Source of the DNA: Bacillales bacterium
Lineage (GTDB): Bacteria > Bacillota > Bacilli > Bacillales > DASSOY01
Length of the DNA stretch: 35,531 nt
NCBI GenBank assembly: GCA_035700025.1
Contig: DASSOY010000021.1
Coordinates: 1-35,531, forward strand
Direction of reading: 5' to 3'
Every line of letters begins with the position of its first letter. Positions within the stretch are counted from its first letter, which is position 1. The position numbers and the translations under genes are program-made. Positions 12,331-23,418 of the stretch are shown here, in pieces. Under the pieces are notes generated by a model. The model was not told where the DNA came from, made no database searches, and saw only the letters and a list, made by a program, of their open reading frames with translations.

Positions 12331-14021
12331 CAAACGGTCGATTTAAGCCGACCCGCAAGATCAAGTAATTCTTTTGCATGTTGTTTCGTCAATTCCGTCA
12401 TTTCCGCTCCGGAAATCATCCGGCCGATTTCATCAATTTGCTGTTCGGTGTTCAAGGATTCGACCGATGTAATCGTCCGATCGCGGCTTTCCTTTTTCGT
12501 AATAAACAAATGCGTGTCCGCCATCGCTGCCACTTGCGGCAAATGCGTGATGCAAAAGACTTGGGAATGAGCGGAAAGGCGGTGAATCTTTTCAGCCATC
12601 GCTTGCGCGGCTCGTCCGCTCACACCTGTATCGACTTCGTCGAAGATGATCGACGTGATTCCCTCACCTTTGGAAAAGATGCTTTTCAACGCAAGCATGA
12701 TCCGCGACAACTCTCCTCCGGAAGCCACTCGTGCCAGCGGCTTAAGCGGTTCACCCGGATTCGTCGAAATGAGAAATTCCACATCGTCGAGTCCGTCGCG
12801 GGCAAAATCGGAACGTTCGGAAAATTGGACGTCAAACCTTGTTTTTGCCATTTGCAATTCAGCCAATTCGTTCGTGATCGCCTCGATTAACCGGTTGGCC
12901 GTCTCCTTTCGGGCTTCGGTTAAACGCTTTGCGTCGACACGCAATTGCTCTTTGATCGATGCCAAGGCCGCTTTCGTTTCTTCCACTTGCCGGTCTCGGT
13001 TCGTTAATTGGTCCAGTTCGGCAGCAGCTTGGCGGCGGTATGCCAAGATGTCATTGACAGAATCACCGTATTTTTTCTTAAGTTTTTGAAGATCATGCAA
13101 TCTCGATTCCAATTCATTCAAGCGTTCCGGATCATATGCAAGCGATTCGAACGTATCACGAATGGAAAACGTCATTTCTTCCAATAAATAATAATGATCG
13201 GCAAGCCGTTCGTGCATTTGCCGATAATCATCGTTGACGTTGGCGATCTGGGACAACGACTGCATCGCTTCTCCTACCCATTCCAATCCCCGCTGCTCCC
13301 CATTCAACGATTCGTACGATTTTTTCAGCGCGGCAAAAACGCGCTCGTAATTCGCAAGCACCGCCCGTTCCTCTTCCAGTTGTTCGTCTTCATTTGGAAC
13401 GAGCGCCGCTTCGTCGATCTCTTCGACTTGAAAGCGGATCAAGTCGATCCGCTGCGCCGCTTCTTTTTCATTTTCATGCAGTTGTTTCCATCTTTTGCGC
13501 AATTCGACATAAGATTCGAATCGTTCACGGTATTTTTCAGACGTCTCGTCTACTTTCGTCCCGCCGAAGTTGTCGAGCAACGACAAATGCCGTTCGCTTT
13601 GGAGCAAATCTTGGTGTTCGTGCTGTCCATGAATGTCGATCAACTTCTTGCCGGTTTGTTTCAGCGCAGCGAGCGTAACCATTTTTCCATTGATCCGGCA
13701 CACCGACTTGCCGGCCTTCGAAATTTCGCGACGCAATACAATCATCTCGTCGTCCGTTTCTAAACCGAGCGATGCCAATTCTTCGCGGCACGGATGTCCG
13801 TTGTCAATGTAAAATAAACCTTCAATTTCCGCCTTCTCTGCGCCGTGCCTGACAAATTCCGCCGAACCACGGCCGCCGATCAACAAACCGATCGCATCAA
13901 TGATCATCGATTTTCCCGCTCCGGTTTCACCGGTAATTACCGTCATTCCTTTGTCGAACGAAAGATCGACGGATTCGATAATTCCGAAATGCCGAATCGA
14001 CAATTCTCCTAACAAACGCAC
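12330..14021 (-). CDS. recN: DNA repair ATPase RecN
   Basis: A 563-residue SMC-like protein that acts early at double-strand breaks. The N-terminal ATPase half has Walker A GETGAGKS at 31-38. A long charged coiled coil spans roughly 150-370. The C-terminal half has the ABC signature ASGGELSRIMLALK, Walker B SIIFDEVDTGVSG, and FCITHLPQVAAMADTH. The start is GTG at 14021, after AAGGG 5 bases upstream; a TTG two codons later is possible. It follows argR by 25 bases on the same strand, the conserved Bacillus order. I looked for but did not find a convincing LexA box in the short gap. Confidence 0.97.
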   Translation of the reverse strand: MRLLGELSIRHFGIIESVDLSFDKGMTVITGETGAGKSMIIDAIGLLIGGRGSAEFVRHGAEKAEIEGLFYIDNGHPCREELASLGLETDDEMIVLRREISKAGKSVCRINGKMVTLAALKQTGKKLIDIHGQHEHQDLLQSERHLSLLDNFGGTKVDETSEKYRERFESYVELRKRWKQLHENEKEAAQRIDLIRFQVEEIDEAALVPNEDEQLEEERAVLANYERVFAALKKSYESLNGEQRGLEWVGEAMQSLSQIANVNDDYRQMHERLADHYYLLEEMTFSIRDTFESLAYDPERLNELESRLHDLQKLKKKYGDSVNDILAYRRQAAAELDQLTNRDRQVEETKAALASIKEQLRVDAKRLTEARKETANRLIEAITNELAELQMAKTRFDVQFSERSDFARDGLDDVEFLISTNPGEPLKPLARVASGGELSRIMLALKSIFSKGEGITSIIFDEVDTGVSGRAAQAMAEKIHRLSAHSQVFCITHLPQVAAMADTHLFITKKESRDRTITSVESLNTEQQIDEIGRMISGAEMTELTKQHAKELLDLAGRLKSTV

Positions 14022-14046
14022 TCACACCCTTTGCCTCCATAATTCG

Positions 14047-14499
14047 TTATTGCAACAAGCTTAAAAAGCGTTCAGAAATTTCGGGGGCGTGTTGTTTCGA
14101 ACGGCAGATGAGCAAAATCGTATCGTCCCCGCACAGCGTGCCGACCAGCCCGTCCCAATCGAGATCGTCAAGCAAATCCCCGATTGCATGTGCGTTGCCG
14201 GGCAACGTTTTCACGACAATCAATTGCTCAGCTTCGTCGAGACGAACAAACCCGTCTCTGAGCACTCGTTTCAAACGCGAAAGCGGATTCGTTCTTTGCC
14301 CGGAAGGCAAACTGTATTTATATCTGCCGTTTTGCATCGGCACTTTCACGAGACTAAGCTCTTTAATGTCCCTGGACACCGTTGCCTGCGTAACGTTGTA
14401 TCCTTGCCGCCGCAACGTATCGACAAGCTCGTCCTGCGTTTCGATCTCCTTTTGCGCAATCAGTTCCATAATTTTGATATGTCTTTGCGATTTGTTCAT
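14047..14499 (-). CDS. argR: Arginine-responsive repressor ArgR/AhrC
   Basis: A 150-residue arginine repressor. The N-terminal winged helix includes [18 protein letters not shown], the usual DNA-reading segment. The C-terminal hexamerisation and arginine-binding domain has [15 protein letters not shown] with the conserved Asp-Asp pair. The start [14 protein letters not shown] at ATG 14499 has GGTGG upstream and matches the family start. A 50-residue upstream extension reading through promoter-like sequence is rejected. It represses arginine biosynthesis and activates catabolism in B. subtilis. It is 82 bases downstream of tlyA, with a promoter and inverted repeat between. Confidence 0.96.
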
Positions 14500-14530
14500 C
14501 ATGACCACCCTTATGGTTTCCTCTTTCATT

Positions 14531-14572
14531 ATGATAGCCGATGGAAAAGAAAATGTACACGCATGGTACATT
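14531..14572 (-). promoter_or_regulatory. Candidate argR promoter with operator-like inverted repeat
   Basis: Minus strand -35 TGTACA (14554-14559), 17-base spacer, -10 TATCAT (14531-14536). Overlapping the -35 is a perfect 7-base inverted repeat, AATGTAC / GTACATT, with a 7-base spacer (14552-14572). It is not a clear match to the usual ARG box, so autoregulation is only a suggestion. Confidence 0.45.
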
Positions 14573-14581
14573 GAATGAGCA

Positions 14582-15415
14582 TTAAGAGGAAGAGGACGAA
14601 GAAAATTCGCGGTGTGCTTGCTCGACGACCCGTCGGACGTGCGCATCATCCATGCAATTCTCCCCTGCAGAGGGCGGCAATCGCAAATGCAATAAAAATT
14701 CGATGTTGCCGTCGCCGCCGGTTATCGGCGAATACGACAAAGCCTGGACGGCGAATCCCGTCGCTTCCGCAAAAGCAACGATGTTTCTGACGACCATCTC
14801 ATGGACGCGGGCATCCTTGACGATGCCTTTGCGGCCGACTTGTTCCCTGCCGGCTTCAAATTGCGGTTTCACAAGGGCAACGACATTTCCGTTCAGCTGC
14901 AAAATCTTCGCGAGCGGCGGCAAGATTAATTTTAACGAAATAAAAGATACATCGATCGTCGCGAAGTCCGGCAATCCTTGCGTGAACCATTGTTTTTCCG
15001 CATAGCGGAAATTCGTTCTTTCCATGACAATCACGCGAAGATCCGTGCGTAATTTCCATGCCAATTGATTATAACCGACATCCAGCGCATAGACGCGTTC
15101 AGCCCCGTGCTGCAAACAGCAATCGGTAAACCCGCCCGTTGATGCGCCGATGTCCAATACCGTCTTGTCCTTCGGGTCTAGATTGAATACCGATAGGGCC
15201 TTCTCCAACTTCAATCCGCCTCTGCCGACATACCGCAAGGTTTCGCCTTTTATCTCAAGCGGGCTCGTCCGATCCACTTTCGTCCCCGGCTTGTCAACGC
15301 GTTCATTGCCTGCAAACACAATGCCTGCCATGACCGCCCGTTTCGCCTTTTCCCGTGATTCAGCCAGTCCCGTTTCGACCAACAATACATCAATTCTCTC
15401 TTTGTCCTTTTTCAT
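14582..15415 (-). CDS. tlyA: TlyA-family RNA methyltransferase (YqxC)
   Basis: A 277-residue protein with an N-terminal S4 RNA-binding domain at about 8-65 ([20 protein letters not shown]) and a FtsJ-like methyltransferase. The SAM motif is [16 protein letters not shown] at about 86-101, followed by [14 protein letters not shown] and [18 protein letters not shown]. Homologues 2'-O-methylate rRNA; in Mycobacterium this confers capreomycin sensitivity, but the Bacillus target is not established. The start is ATG 15415, just 5 bases after the dxs stop; the longer frame to 15481 would overlap dxs. The C-terminus ends in a run of six serines, which is odd but short. The link to dxs is conserved in Bacillus. 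Confidence 0.93.
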
Positions 15416-15419
15416 GATT

Positions 15420-17312
15420 TCACGCCTGCTGTTGTTTTTTGCCGGGTACAAGACTCCGAATGTTCTTGCATATGCCTTCAACGGTCAACCCGACTTCATT
15501 TAACAAATCGCCGACGCTGCCGTGCTCGATATAACGGTCCGGCAAGCCCATCCGCCGGATTTGTGACGTATCGTACCCTTGTTCATTGAAATATTCCAGC
15601 ACCGCCGTACCGAATCCGCCTTTCAAGACGCCTTCTTCAACCGTAAGGATCGGCATGTGCTCATCCGCCAAACCGGACAACATCGCTTCATCCAACGGTT
15701 TCAGAAAACGCGCATTGATGATTTTTACGGAACAGCCTTCCAATGCGAGTGTTTCCGCTGCTTTTTCGGCGGTCTGGATCATCGGTCCGAACGAAAGAAT
15801 CGCGGCATCGTATCCTTCGCGCACCACTTCCCAAGTGCCGATCGGAATTTCATGAAAATGCTCGTCCAATTCAACACCGATCCCGTTTCCGCGCGGCAGT
15901 CGTACAGCGATCGGTCCTTCATCGTAATGCACAGCAGTCGAAATCAAATGCTGCAGTTCGTTTTCGTCTTTCCCCATCGCAATTACCATGTTCGGCAAGG
16001 AACGCATGAAGGCGATGTCGAACACGCCATGATGCGTCTCCCCATCTGCCCCAACAAGACCGGACCGATCGACGGCAAAAACGACGTTCAGCTTTTGCCG
16101 GCATACGTCGTGGACAAGCTGATCGTACCCGCGTTGCAAAAACGTCGAATAAATGGATAATACCGGTTTCATCTTTTCGGCGGCCAGACCTCCGGCCATC
16201 GTCGTAGCATGTTGTTCGGCAATCCCGACATCGAAAAGGCGGTTGGGGAATTCCTTGCGAAAAGCTTCCAATTTCGACCCTACCGTCATCGCCGGCGTGA
16301 GAACGACAATGCGCTCGTCTTTCCTCGCCAGCTTGCGCAAAGCTTCGCTGACGACTTGGCTGTAGGCCGGCGGCGCCCCGACCGGCTTGATCAAATCCCC
16401 GGATTCGATTTTGTACGGTCCCGTGCCGTGCCATGTTCCAACGGTGTCGGACTCAGCAGGTTTGTACCCTTTCCCTTTTTGCGTCAAAACGTGCACGAGT
16501 TTCGGTCCGTGCATTTTCTTCGCATATTTCAGGTTTTCCGTTAAATCGGTGATGCTGTGCCCATTCACAGGACCGAGATACGTATAGCCGAGTTCTTCGA
16601 AAAACATTCCGGTCACAAACAAGTATTTCAACGAATCTTTCAACCGTTCAGCCGTGGATGCGAGACGGCCCCCGACCGGAACTTTTTTCAAAAACGTTTC
16701 AAATTCGTCTTTGGCGCGATTGTATTTCCCTGCCGTACGCAAACGGCCGAGTATGTTGTGAAGCGCCCCGACATTTGGAGCGATCGACATTTCATTATCG
16801 TTGAGAACGACGATTAAATCTTTCTGCTCATGCCCAATGTGATTCAATGCTTCAAGAGCCATACCGCCGGTCAATGCTCCGTCGCCGATGATCGCGATGA
16901 CCGATTCGTTGCCGCCTTTTAAATCGCGGGCAGCCGCAATCCCCATCGCTGCCGAGAGCGATGTTGAGCTATGACCCGTTTCCCAATGATCATGTTCGCT
17001 TTCGGACCGTTTCGGAAATCCAGCCAGCCCTTTGTATTGCCGAAGCGAATCGAACTTGTCTGCACGGCCGGTCAAAATTTTGTGCACATATGACTGGTGT
17101 CCGACATCCCAAATGAATTTGTCTTTCGGGCTTTCGAACAATTTGTGCAAGACGAGCGTCAGTTCGACGACGCCAAGGTTCGGCCCGAGATGTCCGCCGG
17201 TGCGCGACAGTTTTCGGATGAGAAATTCCCGGATTTCCGCTGCCAATTGTTCAAGATCTTCGCTTGAATAAGATTTCATAAACGACGGATCATGAATGCT
17301 TTCAAGATTCAT
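15420..17312 (-). CDS. dxs: 1-deoxy-D-xylulose-5-phosphate synthase
   Basis: A 630-residue thiamine-diphosphate enzyme. It condenses pyruvate with glyceraldehyde 3-phosphate, the first step of the MEP isoprenoid pathway. Visible motifs are [18 protein letters not shown] near 35-52, GDGALTGG at 143-150 with [10 protein letters not shown] (TPP/Mg binding), [10 protein letters not shown], and [18 protein letters not shown] in the pyrimidine domain. The start [12 protein letters not shown] at 17312 aligns with B. subtilis Dxs; AAGGAAG lies about 13 bases upstream, inside the end of oapA. It lies 10 bases downstream of oapA and directly upstream of tlyA, so the three are probably one transcript. 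Confidence 0.97.
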
Positions 17313-17322
17313 TTGGATGATG

Positions 17323-17931
17323 TCACTTCCTTTTAACGCCAGATTGGGTCGCATTGAACTTCTTTTGCGTCAATGAAAGCTTCAGCTTGCTTTCGATGAA
17401 GTAAAACAGCTTGCCAACCTGGAAGATGATTTGTGTCGCGTATCGTATGGCAAACGTTTTGCCAAACGCTTTACCTCCGACCGTCAACGCCGCGACGACG
17501 CTCGTAAATATGACGGAGACGACATATTGAAACGTGGAATCGCTTCCATATTCCAATTGTAAAGTGAGTTGCAAAACTACAGCCGCGACTGCGGTTCCGC
17601 TGACGATACCGGAAATGTCTCCAACGACGTCATTACAAAAGTTCGCCATCCGATCGGCATTTCTAGCGATGTAAATCGACTGTTTCGAACCGTGAATTCG
17701 TTTTGAAGCCATCGCGTGAAATGGTTTTTCGTCCACCGCAGTGGCGGCGACGCCGATGATGTCAAAAATGATCCCGATGGCAACGATGAACAGCACGATT
17801 AACGTGCCGGCGCCCCATGTGACGCCATCGAGGACAAACGTAGATACGACTGAAAAAATAGCCGCTAACACGAGCGTGATAACGGCAATCCCAGAACTCC
17901 ATTTTATGGATTTTTTAAACATTAATTTCAT
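17323..17931 (-). CDS. oapA: OapA, OLE RNA-associated membrane protein (BH2780-like)
   Basis: A 202-residue membrane protein from ATG 17931 (AGGAG about 13 bases upstream; ATG 17922 is an alternative). The longer open frame to 18108 would run back into the RNA gene and is not protein-like there. Four likely membrane segments lie at about 13-33, 40-65, 102-124 and 134-152. The second runs into [20 protein letters not shown] and a basic region ([19 protein letters not shown]), resembling the DUF21/CNNM-type fold found in magnesium transporters. The C-terminus is strongly basic ([16 protein letters not shown]), suited to RNA contact. In B. halodurans the homologue (BH2780) binds OLE RNA and places it at the membrane. 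Identification rests on sequence character and the exact ispA - RNA - oapA - dxs context. Confidence 0.88.
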
Positions 17932-17949
17932 ACTTAGCTTCAATCTCCT

Positions 17950-18560
17950 AACAACGTTAACACAATAGGGAAGTGGTCGTTCGAAGAGTAAACATTGCAG
18001 CTTAGGTCCAGTAGGTTTTCCCGAAAGGATACCGAATCGTTGCCGCTCCGGCGGTTTCCCTTTAAACCCTTTCCGGCCCCGTCGCCGGCAGCCGAACTGG
18101 ATCGCCACTCAGTCTGCACTATAATCCCCTTCAAACGTCATCGGAACAGTCTAGGAGTTTTCCTCAACAGCCCTTCCATTTCCTAGCCTCTTTTGCAGAA
18201 CGGATTTCATACGGATCAGAAAACACTATCCGCCGGCCAAGCGGACTTTTTCCACAATGCCCGTAATCCCCTCCGACTCCACTCAAGGCAGGCTACGCTG
18301 AACGTGAATTCCCAGAACTCACGATTCAGGGTTATCTCCCAACATACGCATGCACGTATGAATGGGGCCTCCGCGGACTGCAGGGTCATCGCCCACATGC
18401 CATTGTGGATCGCCCTACGTCCTTAACTCCCAGCATTGACCCAAGGCTGGGCGCCTCAAGCCGACACCAGAAGCTTCATCGATGTGCCCTTTGGCGGATT
18501 TTTAGGCCCGCCCTCAGAAATGGGAAGCCGACTAGAATACTGCACCACTTGCGTATTGCA
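17950..18560 (-). ncRNA. ole: OLE RNA (Ornate, Large, Extremophilic)
   Basis: About 690 bases between ispA and oapA hold no credible gene but a strong promoter and dense secondary structure. Reading the minus strand, visible hairpins include CCCAGC/GCTGGG (18429-18451), CATACG/CGTATG (18343-18360), and a long one pairing CTGAA with TTCAG and CGTGA with TCACG (18298-18329). GGCGG/CCGCC lies near the 5' end and CCGC/GCGG near 18230. The size, the position between ispA and a four-helix membrane protein preceding dxs, and the promoter all match OLE RNA of B. halodurans (about 610 nt). The 5' end is set from the promoter; the 3' end is estimated from the known length. No terminator is visible before oapA, so the RNA may be processed from, or share, the oapA-dxs transcript. 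I have not matched it to a covariance model. Confidence 0.88.
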
Positions 18561-18566
18561 CATCTT

Positions 18567-18595
18567 ATTATACCACGAATAGCAGATTTTCTCAA
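18567..18595 (-). promoter_or_regulatory. Sigma-A promoter of OLE RNA
   Basis: Minus strand -35 TTGAGA (18590-18595), exactly 17 bases, -10 TATAAT (18567-18572). It is the best vegetative promoter in the window and lies 22-51 bases beyond the ispA stop codon. It predicts transcription starting near 18560 and indicates that the RNA is made independently of the upstream xseAB-ispA genes. Confidence 0.88.
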
Positions 18596-18617
18596 CGAGG
18601 TTATTACGTTGCCGCGG

Positions 18618-19499
18618 TCAAACGTCGCGGTTTACGATGTAATCGCTCAACGCCGACAATCGCCGATGATCGACAGCTGCTTCCGACAAATGATGCTTCG
18701 CTTGAATGAAATGTTCTTCGAGTTTCCGTTTCGCGCCGTCGAGCGACAACAGTTGCGGATACGTACTTTTTTGTTTGTTCAAGTCGCTGCCGGCCGTCTT
18801 TCCCATCGTATTCGTATCCCCAATGATGTCGAGAATGTCGTCGCGGATTTGAAAGGCGAGACCGAGATGTTGCGCGAAATTTCGCAATTGGTTTGTTTGA
18901 AATTCATCAGCGTCGGCAAGCAAAGCGCCGGCTTCAATCGAGAACGCCAGCAATTTTCCGGTTTTTCGTAAGTGCACTTGCTCAAGCTCTTCGAAGGTCA
19001 GTTTTTTTCGTTCCGCCTCGAGATCGAAACATTGCCCGCCGACCATTCCTTCCGCCCCTGCCGCACGCGCCATCATCGCGATCAGCTGTGTCTTCTTGGA
19101 TCCGTCAATGTCCGCGTCGCCGATTTCAGCGACCGCTTCGAAACTTAACGTCAACAAAGCGTCCCCGGCGAGAATTGCCGTCGCTTCTCCGTATATTTTA
19201 TGGTTCGTCGGTTTTCCTCTTCTCAAGTCGTCATCGTCCATGGCAGGCAAGTCGTCGTGAATCAAGGAATACGTGTGGATCAATTCAATCGCAGAAGCGA
19301 CTGGAAGTCCCGATTGTGAATTTTTCCCGAAAGCTTCCATCGTGGCTAGCAGCAAGATTGGGCGAATTCGTTTGCCCCCGGCTTGTACCGAGTAATGCAT
19401 CGCTTCTTTTAACCGATCCGCTGTATCCAGCCGATCGATTTGCGCAAAAAGGATTTCGTCAATTCTTTCCTTTTGCCGTCGAAAATAAGCATCGATCAC
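18618..19499 (-). CDS. ispA: Farnesyl (polyprenyl) diphosphate synthase
   Basis: A 293-residue all-alpha trans-prenyltransferase that makes farnesyl diphosphate from IPP and DMAPP. The first aspartate-rich motif [18 protein letters not shown] is at about 81-98 and the second, [10 protein letters not shown], at 219-228. GGKRIRP at 41-47 binds the diphosphate. The start is GTG at 19499, overlapping the xseB stop as GTGA, so translation is coupled. It is followed within about 30 bases by the OLE RNA promoter. Confidence 0.96.
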
Positions 19500-19747
19500 G
19501 TTTTGTCTTCCTCCTGAATGACCAACGTTTCCATTTCACCATCGTCGTTCAAAATTTGATCCATTTGCTCCTCGACTTTCTTTAACTTCGAATGGCACGT
19601 TTTCGATAAATTCATGCCTTTCTGAAACAGCTCAATCGCCTTTTCAAGCGGGACGTCCCCCTCTTCGAGGCGCTCGACGATTTTTTCCATTTGTTCCATC
19701 GCTTCTTCGAAGGACATCTCGCGTGTTTCGTGTTCCGTTTCTTTCAC
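19496..19747 (-). CDS. xseB: Exodeoxyribonuclease VII small subunit
   Basis: An 83-residue small helical subunit of exonuclease VII with the family core [20 protein letters not shown] and [19 protein letters not shown]. The start is GTG at 19747, overlapping the xseA stop as GTGA and preceded by GAGGGGGAG. A longer frame to 20080 lies inside xseA and is rejected. Confidence 0.93.
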
Positions 19748-21099
19748 TGCGTCTCCCCCTCTTCGATTCCCCAAACTTGACAATCCAATGTTCCGTCCTT
19801 GAGCCTCACATTGACGAGATCTCCGGGCTGCACTTGATGAACCGTTTGGATCAACTGCTTGTCTTTTCCATACGTTAAACTGAAGCCCCGCTCCATGACA
19901 TTGAGCGGACTCAAGACATTCAATTTCGATACCGTTTGACGAAACGCGTTTTGTTGCAGCACAAGCAACTGGTTCATTTCCCGCCGCAGTTGTTTCGCGA
20001 CACGATCGGTTGCAGCAAAGGCGTCTTTCACCGCTTGTTGTGGATGGTATTTCGACAAAACACGAACGGTATTTCTCCATTCGTAGCTTTTGTTCTCAAC
20101 TTGACGACGCATGTTCCTCGTCAACCGCTCCAAACATTGATCCAAAGCTTGTTCCTTCTCACGCAACGTTTGTGCTGGAGAGCGAAATGCATAGGAGGAT
20201 TCCAGTCGTTGCAATCGGGCTCGCTGCGTCTGCATCCGCTCGTTCATCGCCCGTTTCATGCGAATGATTCTTTCATTGATGCGTTCTCGTAATTCGCCGA
20301 CGTGGGGAACGGCCAACTCAGCAGCCGCAGTCGGCGTTGGAGCACGAACGTCGGAAACGAAGTCGGAGATCGTGTAGTCGGTTTCGTGCCCAACGGCGGA
20401 AATGATCGGGAGACGGGAACGAAAAATCGCCCGGGCGACGATTTCTTCATTAAATGCCCATAATTCTTCGATGGAACCGCCTCCGCGGCCGATGATCAAA
20501 ACATCGAGAAAGGAGTGCAAGTTCGCTTGTTTGATGGCATCGGCGACCGACGCGGCTGCTGCTGTTCCTTGCACGAGAGCAGGAAATACCGTGATGCGGG
20601 CGGCGGGGTAGCGTCGTTTGATTGTCGTGCAAATATCGCGCAAGGCTGCGCCTGTCGGCGAAGTGACAACACCGATTTCCGTTGCATACGTCGGAAGCGT
20701 TTTTTTATGTGCTACGGCAAACAGGCCTTCCTGTTCCAATTTGCGTTTCAATTCTTCGAAAGCGAGATACAAATTGCCGACCCCGTCCGGCTGGATTTCT
20801 TTCGCGTACAATTGGTATTGGCCGTACGGTTCATAAACCGAAACTTCGCCTCGTACGAGCACCTTCATTCCGTCTTCCGGCCGGAAACGGAGCGAACGAT
20901 TTTGACTGGAGAACATGACCGACTGGATTCTTGACTGGTTGTCTTTCAAGGTGAAGTACATATGGCCGCGGCTGTGGTGTTTAAAGTTCGAGAGTTCGCC
21001 GCGCACCCATACGTTTCGGTATTTCGGCTCTTTCTCAAACAATCGTTTGATCGAACGAGTTAAGGCGGTAACCGTCATATAACGGTCGGCATCGTTCAT
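19744..21099 (-). CDS. xseA: Exodeoxyribonuclease VII large subunit
   Basis: A 451-residue nuclease subunit. The N-terminal OB-fold (tRNA_anti-like) at about 8-105 includes [23 protein letters not shown]. The catalytic domain has [31 protein letters not shown], and [31 protein letters not shown] in two parts. A long coiled coil at about 260-400 precedes the C-terminus. With XseB it degrades single-stranded DNA. AAAGGAGAA lies upstream of ATG 21099. The 42-base gap to nusB is where B. subtilis has folD. Confidence 0.96.
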
Positions 21100-21141
21100 G
21101 GAAACATTCTCCTTTGAATGACAAGTTCAATCGTTGGCGAC

Positions 21142-21534
21142 TTATTTTTCAACGTCGCGGGCAATCTTTGACAAAACACCGTTCACAAAACGTCCCGACT
21201 GTTCGCCTCCGAACGTTTTCGCCAACTCGACGGCCTCGTTTAACGTTACGTTCCGCGGTATGTCACCAAGAAATTTGAGTTCGAACACGGCCATGCGCAA
21301 AATGCAGCGATCGACGTTTCCGACTCTTGACAAATTCCAATGCTCCAAGTTCGCGACGATGACTGGATCGATGGCAGCCTGATGGTCCAACGTACCTTCC
21401 ACGAGCTTATTTAAAAATTCGTCTTGCTGTCCCTCTTCGAGCACATTTTCAATCGCTTCCGCCGCCTCTGCGCCGCCGATTTCCACTTGAAACAAAGCTT
21501 GTACCGCTTTTTCGCGGGCCATTCGTCTGTTCAT
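21142..21534 (-). CDS. nusB: Transcription antitermination factor NusB
   Basis: A 130-residue all-helical NusB, the normal length. It begins MNRRMAREKAVQALFQVEIG and ends with the conserved LGDIPRNVTLNEAVELAKTFGG...FVNGVLSKI. With NusE (S10) it binds boxA RNA for rRNA antitermination. AAAGGAAG lies upstream of ATG 21534. It is separated from yqhY by a terminator, so it is the first gene of the nusB-xseA-xseB-ispA group. No clear promoter is visible in the 60 bases upstream. Confidence 0.95.
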   Translation of the reverse strand: MNRRMAREKAVQALFQVEIGGAEAAEAIENVLEEGQQDEFLNKLVEGTLDHQAAIDPVIVANLEHWNLSRVGNVDRCILRMAVFELKFLGDIPRNVTLNEAVELAKTFGGEQSGRFVNGVLSKIARDVEK

Positions 21535-21599
21535 TCGTTAACTTCCTTTCTCCGTGGGCAAGCGAAACAAGCAAACACACGACAAATGGTCATTCGTGC

Positions 21600-21639
21600 A
21601 AAAAAATCAAAGGGAAGCCGCCTCCCCCTTGATTTTTTT
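21600..21639. terminator. Terminator between yqhY and nusB
   Basis: A 12-pair stem (ATCAAGGGGGAG with CTTCCCTTTGAT, some G-T pairs) lies at 21606-21633, flanked by A/T runs so it has T tracts on both strands. It ends the accB-accC-yqhY transcript. Confidence 0.85.
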
Positions 21640-21646
21640 CATTCAT

Positions 21647-22051
21647 TCATTCGCTTTCTTCTTTCGCATCTTCTGCTTCGTCGGTTTGTTCGAATTGGAT
21701 GCCGGTTACGTGAATGTTGACCGCTTTCACATCAAGCGACGTCATCGTTCGCAACGTTTGGCAAATGTTGTCTTGAATCTTTTGGCCGGTTTCGGGAATG
21801 GACACGCCGTATTTCAACAGCACGTAAACGTCGATTGTGATGCCGTCTTCTGCGAGCTCCACCTTCACCCCTTTGCGGTGATTACGTCTGCCTAATCTCT
21901 CAGCGACTCCCGTCGCGAAACTTCCGCGCATTTCCGAAACGCCGGTTACCTCATTGGCCGCAATGCTTGCGATCACCTCAATGACCTCCGGCGAAATTTC
22001 CACCTTCCCGAGATCGTGCTCTTCCATTTCAAAAGTGGTCGACTCCGTCAT
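21647..22051 (-). CDS. yqhY: Asp23/Gls24 family protein YqhY
   Basis: A 134-residue Asp23/Gls24 domain protein with GKVEISPEVIEVIASIAANE, VTGVSEMRG and VYVLLKYGVSIPE. It is acidic at both ends. The start is ATG 22051, with GGAGGTGA 5 bases upstream; a GTG at 22069 is a less likely alternative. The ribosome site overlaps the end of accC. In B. subtilis, loss of YqhY unbalances fatty acid synthesis and selects acetyl-CoA carboxylase mutations. The accB-accC-yqhY linkage seen here fits a role tied to that enzyme. Confidence 0.92.
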   Translation of the reverse strand: MTESTTFEMEEHDLGKVEISPEVIEVIASIAANEVTGVSEMRGSFATGVAERLGRRNHRKGVKVELAEDGITIDVYVLLKYGVSIPETGQKIQDNICQTLRTMTSLDVKAVNIHVTGIQFEQTDEAEDAKEESE

Positions 22052-22065
22052 ATCAGTCACCTCCG

Positions 22066-23418
22066 TCACCGACTCGTTAATGGGTATTGTTCGAGAAATT
22101 TCGTATTGAAATTCCCCTCGACGAATTTTTCGTGATTCAACAGCCGCAAATGAAACGGAATGGTCGTATGAACGCCTTCGACGACAAATTCGTCCAGCGC
22201 CCTTTTCATCCGCGCAATGGCTTCTTCGCGCGTTTTTCCATAGCTGATCACTTTAGCGATCATTGAATCATAAAACGGCGGAATTTTGTAGCCGGTATAG
22301 GCCGCTGAATCCACGCGCACACCGAATCCGCCGGGCGGGAGAAACATTTCCAGCCGTCCGGGCGAAGGCATGAAATTTTTATCCGGGTTTTCCGCGTTAA
22401 TGCGGCATTCGATCGCCCAACCTTCATAGGTGACGTCTTCCTGCCGGAGTGAGAGTTTCTCGCCCGAAGCGACGCGAATTTGTTCCTTGACTAGATCGAC
22501 CCCGGTTACCCATTCCGTGACGGGATGCTCCACCTGGATGCGTGTGTTCATTTCCATAAAATAAAAATTCCCGTTGTTGTGGTCGTAAATAAATTCGATC
22601 GTTCCGGCGCCGGTGTAATCGACCGCTTGAGCCGCTTTCACCGCCGCGTTGCCCATTTCCTCGCGCTTATCGGCGTCGAGCGCCGGAGACGGGGATTCTT
22701 CCAACAGTTTTTGCAGGCGCCGCTGAATCGAGCAATCCCGTTCCCCGAGGTGAATCGTGTTTCCGTGCGTATCGGCCAACACTTGGATCTCCACATGACG
22801 GAAATCTTCGATGTATTTCTCAAGATATACGCCGTCATTTCCGAAAGCGGTCGCCGCTTCCCGCTGCGTCACGCGCACCCCTTTCACGAGATCCTCTTTC
22901 GTGCGTGCCACGCGGATGCCTTTGCCGCCGCCGCCGGCCGTCGCCTTGATAATGACCGGATAACCGATTTCATCGGCGACCTTAAGCGCCTCTTCCTCAT
23001 CAGCCACGATGCCGTCGGAACCAGGCACGACCGGCACGCCGGCTTTCTCCATCGTTTTCCGGGCGACGTCTTTCGTACCCATCTTCGCGATCGCTTCCGC
23101 ACTCGGTCCGACAAACGTGACGTTGCACTCGGCACATATTTCCGCAAAATCGGCGTTTTCGGAAAGAAATCCGTAGCCGGGGTGGATCGCATCCACGCCG
23201 GTAAGCTTTGCGATACTCATGATATTTGTGAAATTTAAGTAGCTGTCTTTCGAAGCAGCCGGCCCGATGCAGTAGGCCTCATCGGCCATTCTCGTATGGA
23301 GGGCGTCTTCGTCTGCCTTCGAATAGACGGCAACCGTCTCAATGCCAAGCTCTTTGCAAGCGCGAATAACGCGAACGGCAATTTCTCCGCGGTTGGCAAC
23401 GAGCAATTTTTTGATCAT
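22066..23418 (-). CDS. accC: Acetyl-CoA carboxylase, biotin carboxylase subunit
   Basis: A 450-residue ATP-grasp biotin carboxylase, the standard length. It opens [20 protein letters not shown]. The ATP loop [14 protein letters not shown] contains GGGGKG at 162-167, and the catalytic region has [19 protein letters not shown]-terminal biotin-carboxylase domain follows. It carboxylates biotin on AccB. AAGGAG precedes ATG 23418, 82 bases downstream of accB in the same operon. Confidence 0.97.

Follow-up and report, generated by a model that had tools for sequence, protein, structure and literature searches.

In Halalkalibacterium halodurans, the structured noncoding RNA OLE is reported to be bound by the protein OapA, which brings the RNA to the membrane. 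The ole gene of this species is described as lying in an operon, having its own promoter and giving a transcript that is presumably processed to about 630 nucleotides (PMC9723947); operon placement, own promoter and processing are therefore not new here. A further report describes the OLE 3' end as processed and the RNA as susceptible to RNase P, and calls OapA 'weakly homologous' to the CNNM (DUF21) proteins (PMC11332333). Of the other OLE partners, OapB is given as a KOW protein and OapC as an L7Ae-like protein (PMC9723947, PMC12054373). OLE is reported to be abundant without stress.

The endoribonuclease EndoA (MazF) is a toxin well known from the stress biology of these bacteria. According to a 2025 transcriptome study of B. 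subtilis, it cuts U^ACAUA, solely when UACAU precedes A; in the data described there the cleavage signal vanishes with loss of ndoA and is absent in wild-type unstressed cells, and the same source gives the consensus of RNase Y as weak (PMC11780869).

We analysed a 35,531-nucleotide stretch of DNA from a Bacillales bacterium (assembly GCA_035700025.1, contig DASSOY010000021.1; hereafter the window), the minus strand of which carries, in order, an ispA-like gene, an OLE RNA, oapA and a dxs-like gene (Table 1). The two outer genes are presumably of the ispA type and dxs. The OLE match covers the full-length model (507.6 bits against a gathering score of 50; E 3.2e-146) and is the sole Rfam match in the window; the genome has one OLE.

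Table 1. Features of the ole-oapA region, in positions of the window
Feature	Positions	Strand	Basis or remark
dxs (name presumed)	15420..17312	-	ORF list; start 10 nt past the oapA stop
oapA	17323..17931	-	ORF, homology; membrane protein of 202 aa
Gap from OLE model end to oapA ATG, 25 nt	17932..17956	-	without terminator, without TACATA
Shine-Dalgarno-like TTAGGAG of oapA	17945..17951	-	read from sequence
OLE RNA (ole gene)	17957..18564	-	Rfam RF01071, 507.6 bits, model 1-616
-10 hexamer TATAAT, ole promoter	18567..18572	-	promoter scan
-35 hexamer TTGAGA, ole promoter	18590..18595	-	promoter scan
ispA-type prenyl synthase gene (name presumed), upstream of OLE	18618..19499	-	ORF list

The locus consists of an OapA gene and an OLE RNA, an assignment that we regard as practically certain. 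The original prediction, made without database searches, had named the protein OapA from its four helices, basic tail and DUF21-like character, and the identity was borne out: over its whole length the protein is 69% identical to the OapA of H. halodurans and 40-70% identical to those of other relatives, and ole adjoins its gene on the same strand. An alignment with 12 relatives has 24 invariant residues. Hydropathy picks out four hydrophobic stretches, of which the last two are weaker, and the sequence closes with a basic tail. The DUF21-like character is real but weak, as the protein matches the Pfam CNNM profile with E 0.0055 and 16.8 bits, below the cut-off of 28.4, and no other Pfam domain was matched. 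At E<=0.1, 10 of 13 OapA proteins match CNNM, 8.4e-07 being the best value, which agrees with the weak homology described in print. MpfA-type CNNM proteins thus resemble OapA in this profile match, and differ from the window's protein in that the latter is short and falls under the Pfam cut-off.

The genome also holds genes for OapB (7k9b as best PDB match, 7.8e-34), upstream of infA, and OapC (NF010125, 127.9 bits versus a cut-off of 113), between rpoC- and rpsL-like genes. Both had been anticipated, with their L7Ae-like and KOW identities swapped.

For comparison, OLE was found in 225 of 397 genomes sampled from the order, 87 of 398 from the class and 284 of 398 from the phylum. A tblastn search of genome contigs yielded 289 OapA relatives, of which 80 were kept, and these together with 250 loci fetched by OLE gave the 330 loci compared. 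OLE lies on the same strand in 78 of the 80 kept OapA loci, and a same-strand OapA is present in 244 of the 250 loci fetched by OLE. No OLE was found for L116 and L125. In L116 (3868-4594; Virgibacillus sp. AGTR 9) the OapA is 41% identical to that of the window and a hairpin-like stretch lies upstream of its gene, with no OLE within the fetched 4 kb upstream. The fetched flank lacks oapA in six loci (L012, L177, L202, L204, L206 and L209), where hairpin-T stretches follow OLE.

The ole gene of the window is preceded by a promoter-like site, TTGAGA-17-TATAAT, that matches the sigma-A consensus at 11 of 12 positions and has TG ahead of the -10 hexamer, which ends 3 nucleotides upstream of the OLE model start. 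It is the only site exceeding 9/12 in a scan of positions 14000-22500. Similar sites are common at the OLE start (-70 to +12): 224 of 264 non-redundant loci have one of at least 9/12 and 143 of at least 10/12, compared with 43 and 5 of 264 in mononucleotide shuffles. Because OLE has its own strong promoter-like site, it is not just the leader of an operon message. The suggestion that OLE is the processed 5' part of an oapA-dxs message therefore stands in part: read-through and processing are the best reading of the locus, but the RNA has its own promoter too.

No T-run hairpin was found on scanning positions 17932-17956, and the 101-nucleotide junction stretch folds no better than its shuffles (z -0.27); neither gives a sign of an intrinsic terminator here, and the original prediction had likewise noted no T-tract hairpin before oapA. 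The minus strand has no promoter-like site of at least 9/12 between 17932 and 18560. The gap between OLE and oapA could be obtained for 253 of 270 loci (in one gap set the start codon was missing in 10 of 167); its median is 40 nucleotides and it is at most 60 in 69%. Transcription very likely reads through from OLE into oapA without a stop signal. The window's short, terminator-free junction, the promoter of ole, the direct succession of ole and oapA and the presence of OapB and OapC genes are all shared with H. halodurans.

The tails of OLE RNAs were compared as 75-nucleotide segments reaching from -15 to +60 of the OLE end. These were obtained from 328 loci and reduced to 270 by dropping tails that share at least 30% of their 8-mers with an earlier tail. 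TACATA occurs in 153 of the 270, against a mean of 10.3 and a maximum of 17 in 100 dinucleotide shuffles, and is the top-scoring hexamer, above ribosome-binding-site and start-codon words. It is found in 50 of 55 tails from the window's own order (3.9 expected), 42 of 58 from the class (1.8) and 31 of 92 from the phylum (2.9). The reverse complement TATGTA is present in only 1/55, 2/58 and 1/92, at or below chance, which places the signal on the strand of the RNA. The word is also exact, since each of its 18 one-letter variants occurs in 0-14 of 133 tails and TACATA itself in 73. Its flanks carry nearly no information (0.02 bit before, 0.04 after; at most 0.05 at -1 and +6), with a mild pyrimidine bias farther upstream, and its predicted openness is only modestly raised (0.60 versus 0.50), a point against the cleavage scheme set out below.

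The position of the word is fixed relative to OLE. TACATA peaks between -20 and 0 from the OLE model end, is nearly absent from the OLE body and is rare in oapA. It follows the conserved ACCTAAG at a median distance of 43 nucleotides (interquartile range 41-49, n=138), and in gaps of at least 70 nucleotides, the motif is no more than 25 nucleotides from the end of OLE in 27 of 32 cases and no more than 40 from the start of oapA in 3 of 32. UACAUA is thus anchored to the ACCUAAG of OLE, not to the start of oapA. On a tree of OLE RNAs (241 rows) its presence changes at least 38 times; the word has been lost and gained often, yet it is common. We consider it nearly certain that UACAUA is a selected element of the OLE tail. 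In the Rfam OLE consensus the tail reads AcCAcuuuuuuuuaauauuuu, in which UACAUA is not shown, and as far as our searches show, the conserved tail is undescribed. No paper was found that mentions both OLE RNA and EndoA; the one that mentions OLE RNA and MazF is, to judge from title and abstract, on a Staphylococcus phage, and those that mention toxin-antitoxin systems do not, by their titles, deal with OLE processing.

Several simple roles for the word were considered and set aside. It is not a general mark of noncoding RNA 3' ends to judge from RNase P RNA, a single class examined in the same order, in which 0 of 30 3' ends contain it. Pairing with UAUGUA inside OLE can have no general role, since TATGTA occurs in just 13 of the 153 OLE bodies whose tail has the word, and in 1 of the other 117. 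The word does not alternate with terminators, as 15 of 30 terminator-like loci carry TACATA as well. Nor does the word form a clear peak where OLE begins; TACATA stands at the very 5' end in scattered cases (L028, L088, L089, L102 and L119).

The window itself differs here from H. halodurans, in which the U of UACAUA is nucleotide 619 in the published 1-637 numbering (primers from PMC12054373), in the range of the published OLE size of about 630 nucleotides. The window's gap has no TACATA, and the 7 occurrences in the window all lie elsewhere. In the OLE tree the window's RNA stands on a long branch, and its genome is the only one of its family in the comparison. The original prediction had allowed for an RNA end at a structure not visible in the sequence; most relatives have the word UACAUA in that place and no hairpin, and the window has no UACAUA.

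The tail word equals the EndoA recognition hexamer letter for letter, and this suggests an EndoA-type cut between OLE and oapA. On balance we favour a scheme in which OLE is freed from a read-through transcript by a cut in its tail, made by EndoA at UACAUA in most relatives. Transcription would start at the sigma-A promoter of ole, possibly with operon read-through from ispA as well, and the transcript would comprise OLE RNA followed by oapA and dxs with no terminator between. OLE would be freed when an endonuclease cuts the short tail past the last helix. In most relatives EndoA would make this cut at U^ACAUA, most plausibly when stress frees the enzyme, parting the stable RNA from the mRNA of oapA and thereby setting the RNA:protein ratio. 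At the window's own locus, release would fall to another nuclease. Computation supports the identity of the locus, the promoter, the missing terminator and the conserved hexamer with its position; the choice of EndoA as the enzyme, the stress dependence of the cut and its effect on the ratio are what we infer.

Taken singly, cleavage of the OLE tail by EndoA at U^ACAUA is a possibility that we put at slightly less than an even chance. Compared with the mRNA cleavage described in B. subtilis, the word is the same and nearly every OLE genome tested has an orthologue of the enzyme, but here the word sits at the end of a structured noncoding RNA, where the cut is a proposal. An EndoA orthologue was found in 224 of 240 OLE genomes (of the 250, L162-L170 were left out, as was the window's genome, which was tested separately). 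The window's genome has an EndoA gene as well, preceded by a short ORF that we take for the putative antitoxin. TACATA is present in 138 of the 224 genomes with EndoA and in 3 of the 16 without an intact orthologue (p 0.001), a difference that is confounded because the genomes are related. Outside the class the figures are 33/95 and 2/15 (p 0.14), EndoA changes 6 times on the tree, and independent pairs give no trend; we therefore rejected co-loss with EndoA as proof of the link. TACATA is missing in 86 of the 224 EndoA-bearing genomes and is kept in L232 and L242, which have no EndoA orthologue, and in L028 despite a broken EndoA frame. In the genome of L028 (G086) EndoA lies in two frames, with pieces 97% and 80% identical, through decay or an assembly error.

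EndoA is silent in unstressed B. subtilis, yet OLE is abundant without stress, so EndoA can hardly make every 3' end. The window has EndoA and no hexamer, so OLE release there must use another nuclease or route. Somewhat more tentatively still, a toxin of the MazF/EndoA type might be a built-in maturation or release enzyme of this conserved noncoding RNA: by way of the selected U^ACAUA at the 3' end, stress-activated EndoA would part OLE from the oapA mRNA, and the OLE stress particle would thereby be coupled to the chromosomal toxin-antitoxin system in much of Bacillota. If so, a stress ribonucleoprotein would offer that system a target both specific and conserved. The exact conserved site makes OLE 3'-end formation, and the amount of OLE relative to OapA, testable, and even if EndoA is the wrong enzyme, UACAUA is a conserved feature of OLE missing from the Rfam consensus.

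The strongest competing explanation, to which we give roughly one chance in three, is that OLE is freed by a general nuclease (RNase P or RNase Y, or exonucleases that trim the 3' end back to the last helix) and that UACAUA has some other function, for instance as a protein-binding site or as a functional 3' tail of the particle. It draws on the report that the 3' end of OLE is processed and the RNA susceptible to RNase P (PMC11332333) and on the lack of the word in the window and in the EndoA-bearing genomes counted above. It also fits the anchoring of the word to OLE and its persistence in 3 of the 6 loci without a nearby oapA, where hairpin-T stretches follow; the role of the word is thus not just to free oapA. 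Against it, we know of no other factor with UACAUA specificity. Nor would an exact, context-free EndoA hexamer be expected of RNase Y, with its weak consensus (PMC11780869).

It is improbable that OLE ends at an intrinsic terminator missed by the scans, with oapA read by leakage. Terminator-like sites do occur after OLE, within -20 to +150, in 30 of 264 loci (some inside coding sequence), and by eye in the 6 loci without a nearby oapA, but the window has none by scan or fold, and most gaps, at a median of 40 nucleotides, are too short for one. We dismiss as very improbable that UACAUA is the -10 element of a promoter of oapA's own, for although the word is A+T-rich and lies upstream of oapA, and CATAAT occurs in 38 of 270 tails (11 expected), TATAAT is not enriched (19 versus 20.7), the final letter is a fixed A where a -10 hexamer needs T, the flanks have no spacing signal, the distance kept is that to OLE and not to oapA, and the window has no promoter-like site in this region.

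Further elements were seen in some OLE-oapA gaps. A GC-rich element, GGCCGTTGGC...CCGGTCAAGCC then GCCGGCC...GGCCGGCA, followed in some by a T run, is present in the gaps of L030 (2093-2229), L098, L103, L183, L188, L190, L191, L194, L195 and L210. It could be aligned across four loci and has no Rfam match at E<=0.5 in the five searched (L030, L098, L188, L195 and L210); it is possibly an attenuator of oapA. Oscillospiraceae metagenome-assembled genomes have OLE-oapA gaps of 170-393 nucleotides (L104, L106, L107, L109, L110, L112, L114, L118, L123, L126 and L139), most with a GCCGCG-type hairpin and T run shortly before oapA and several with TTTTTCCGACGTACATGCCGCCGGAAAAA upstream. Finally, one genome in the comparison has two strong matches to type-B RNase P RNA, at G344:C28:477699-478081 (348 bits) and G344:C14:57173-57685 (287 bits).
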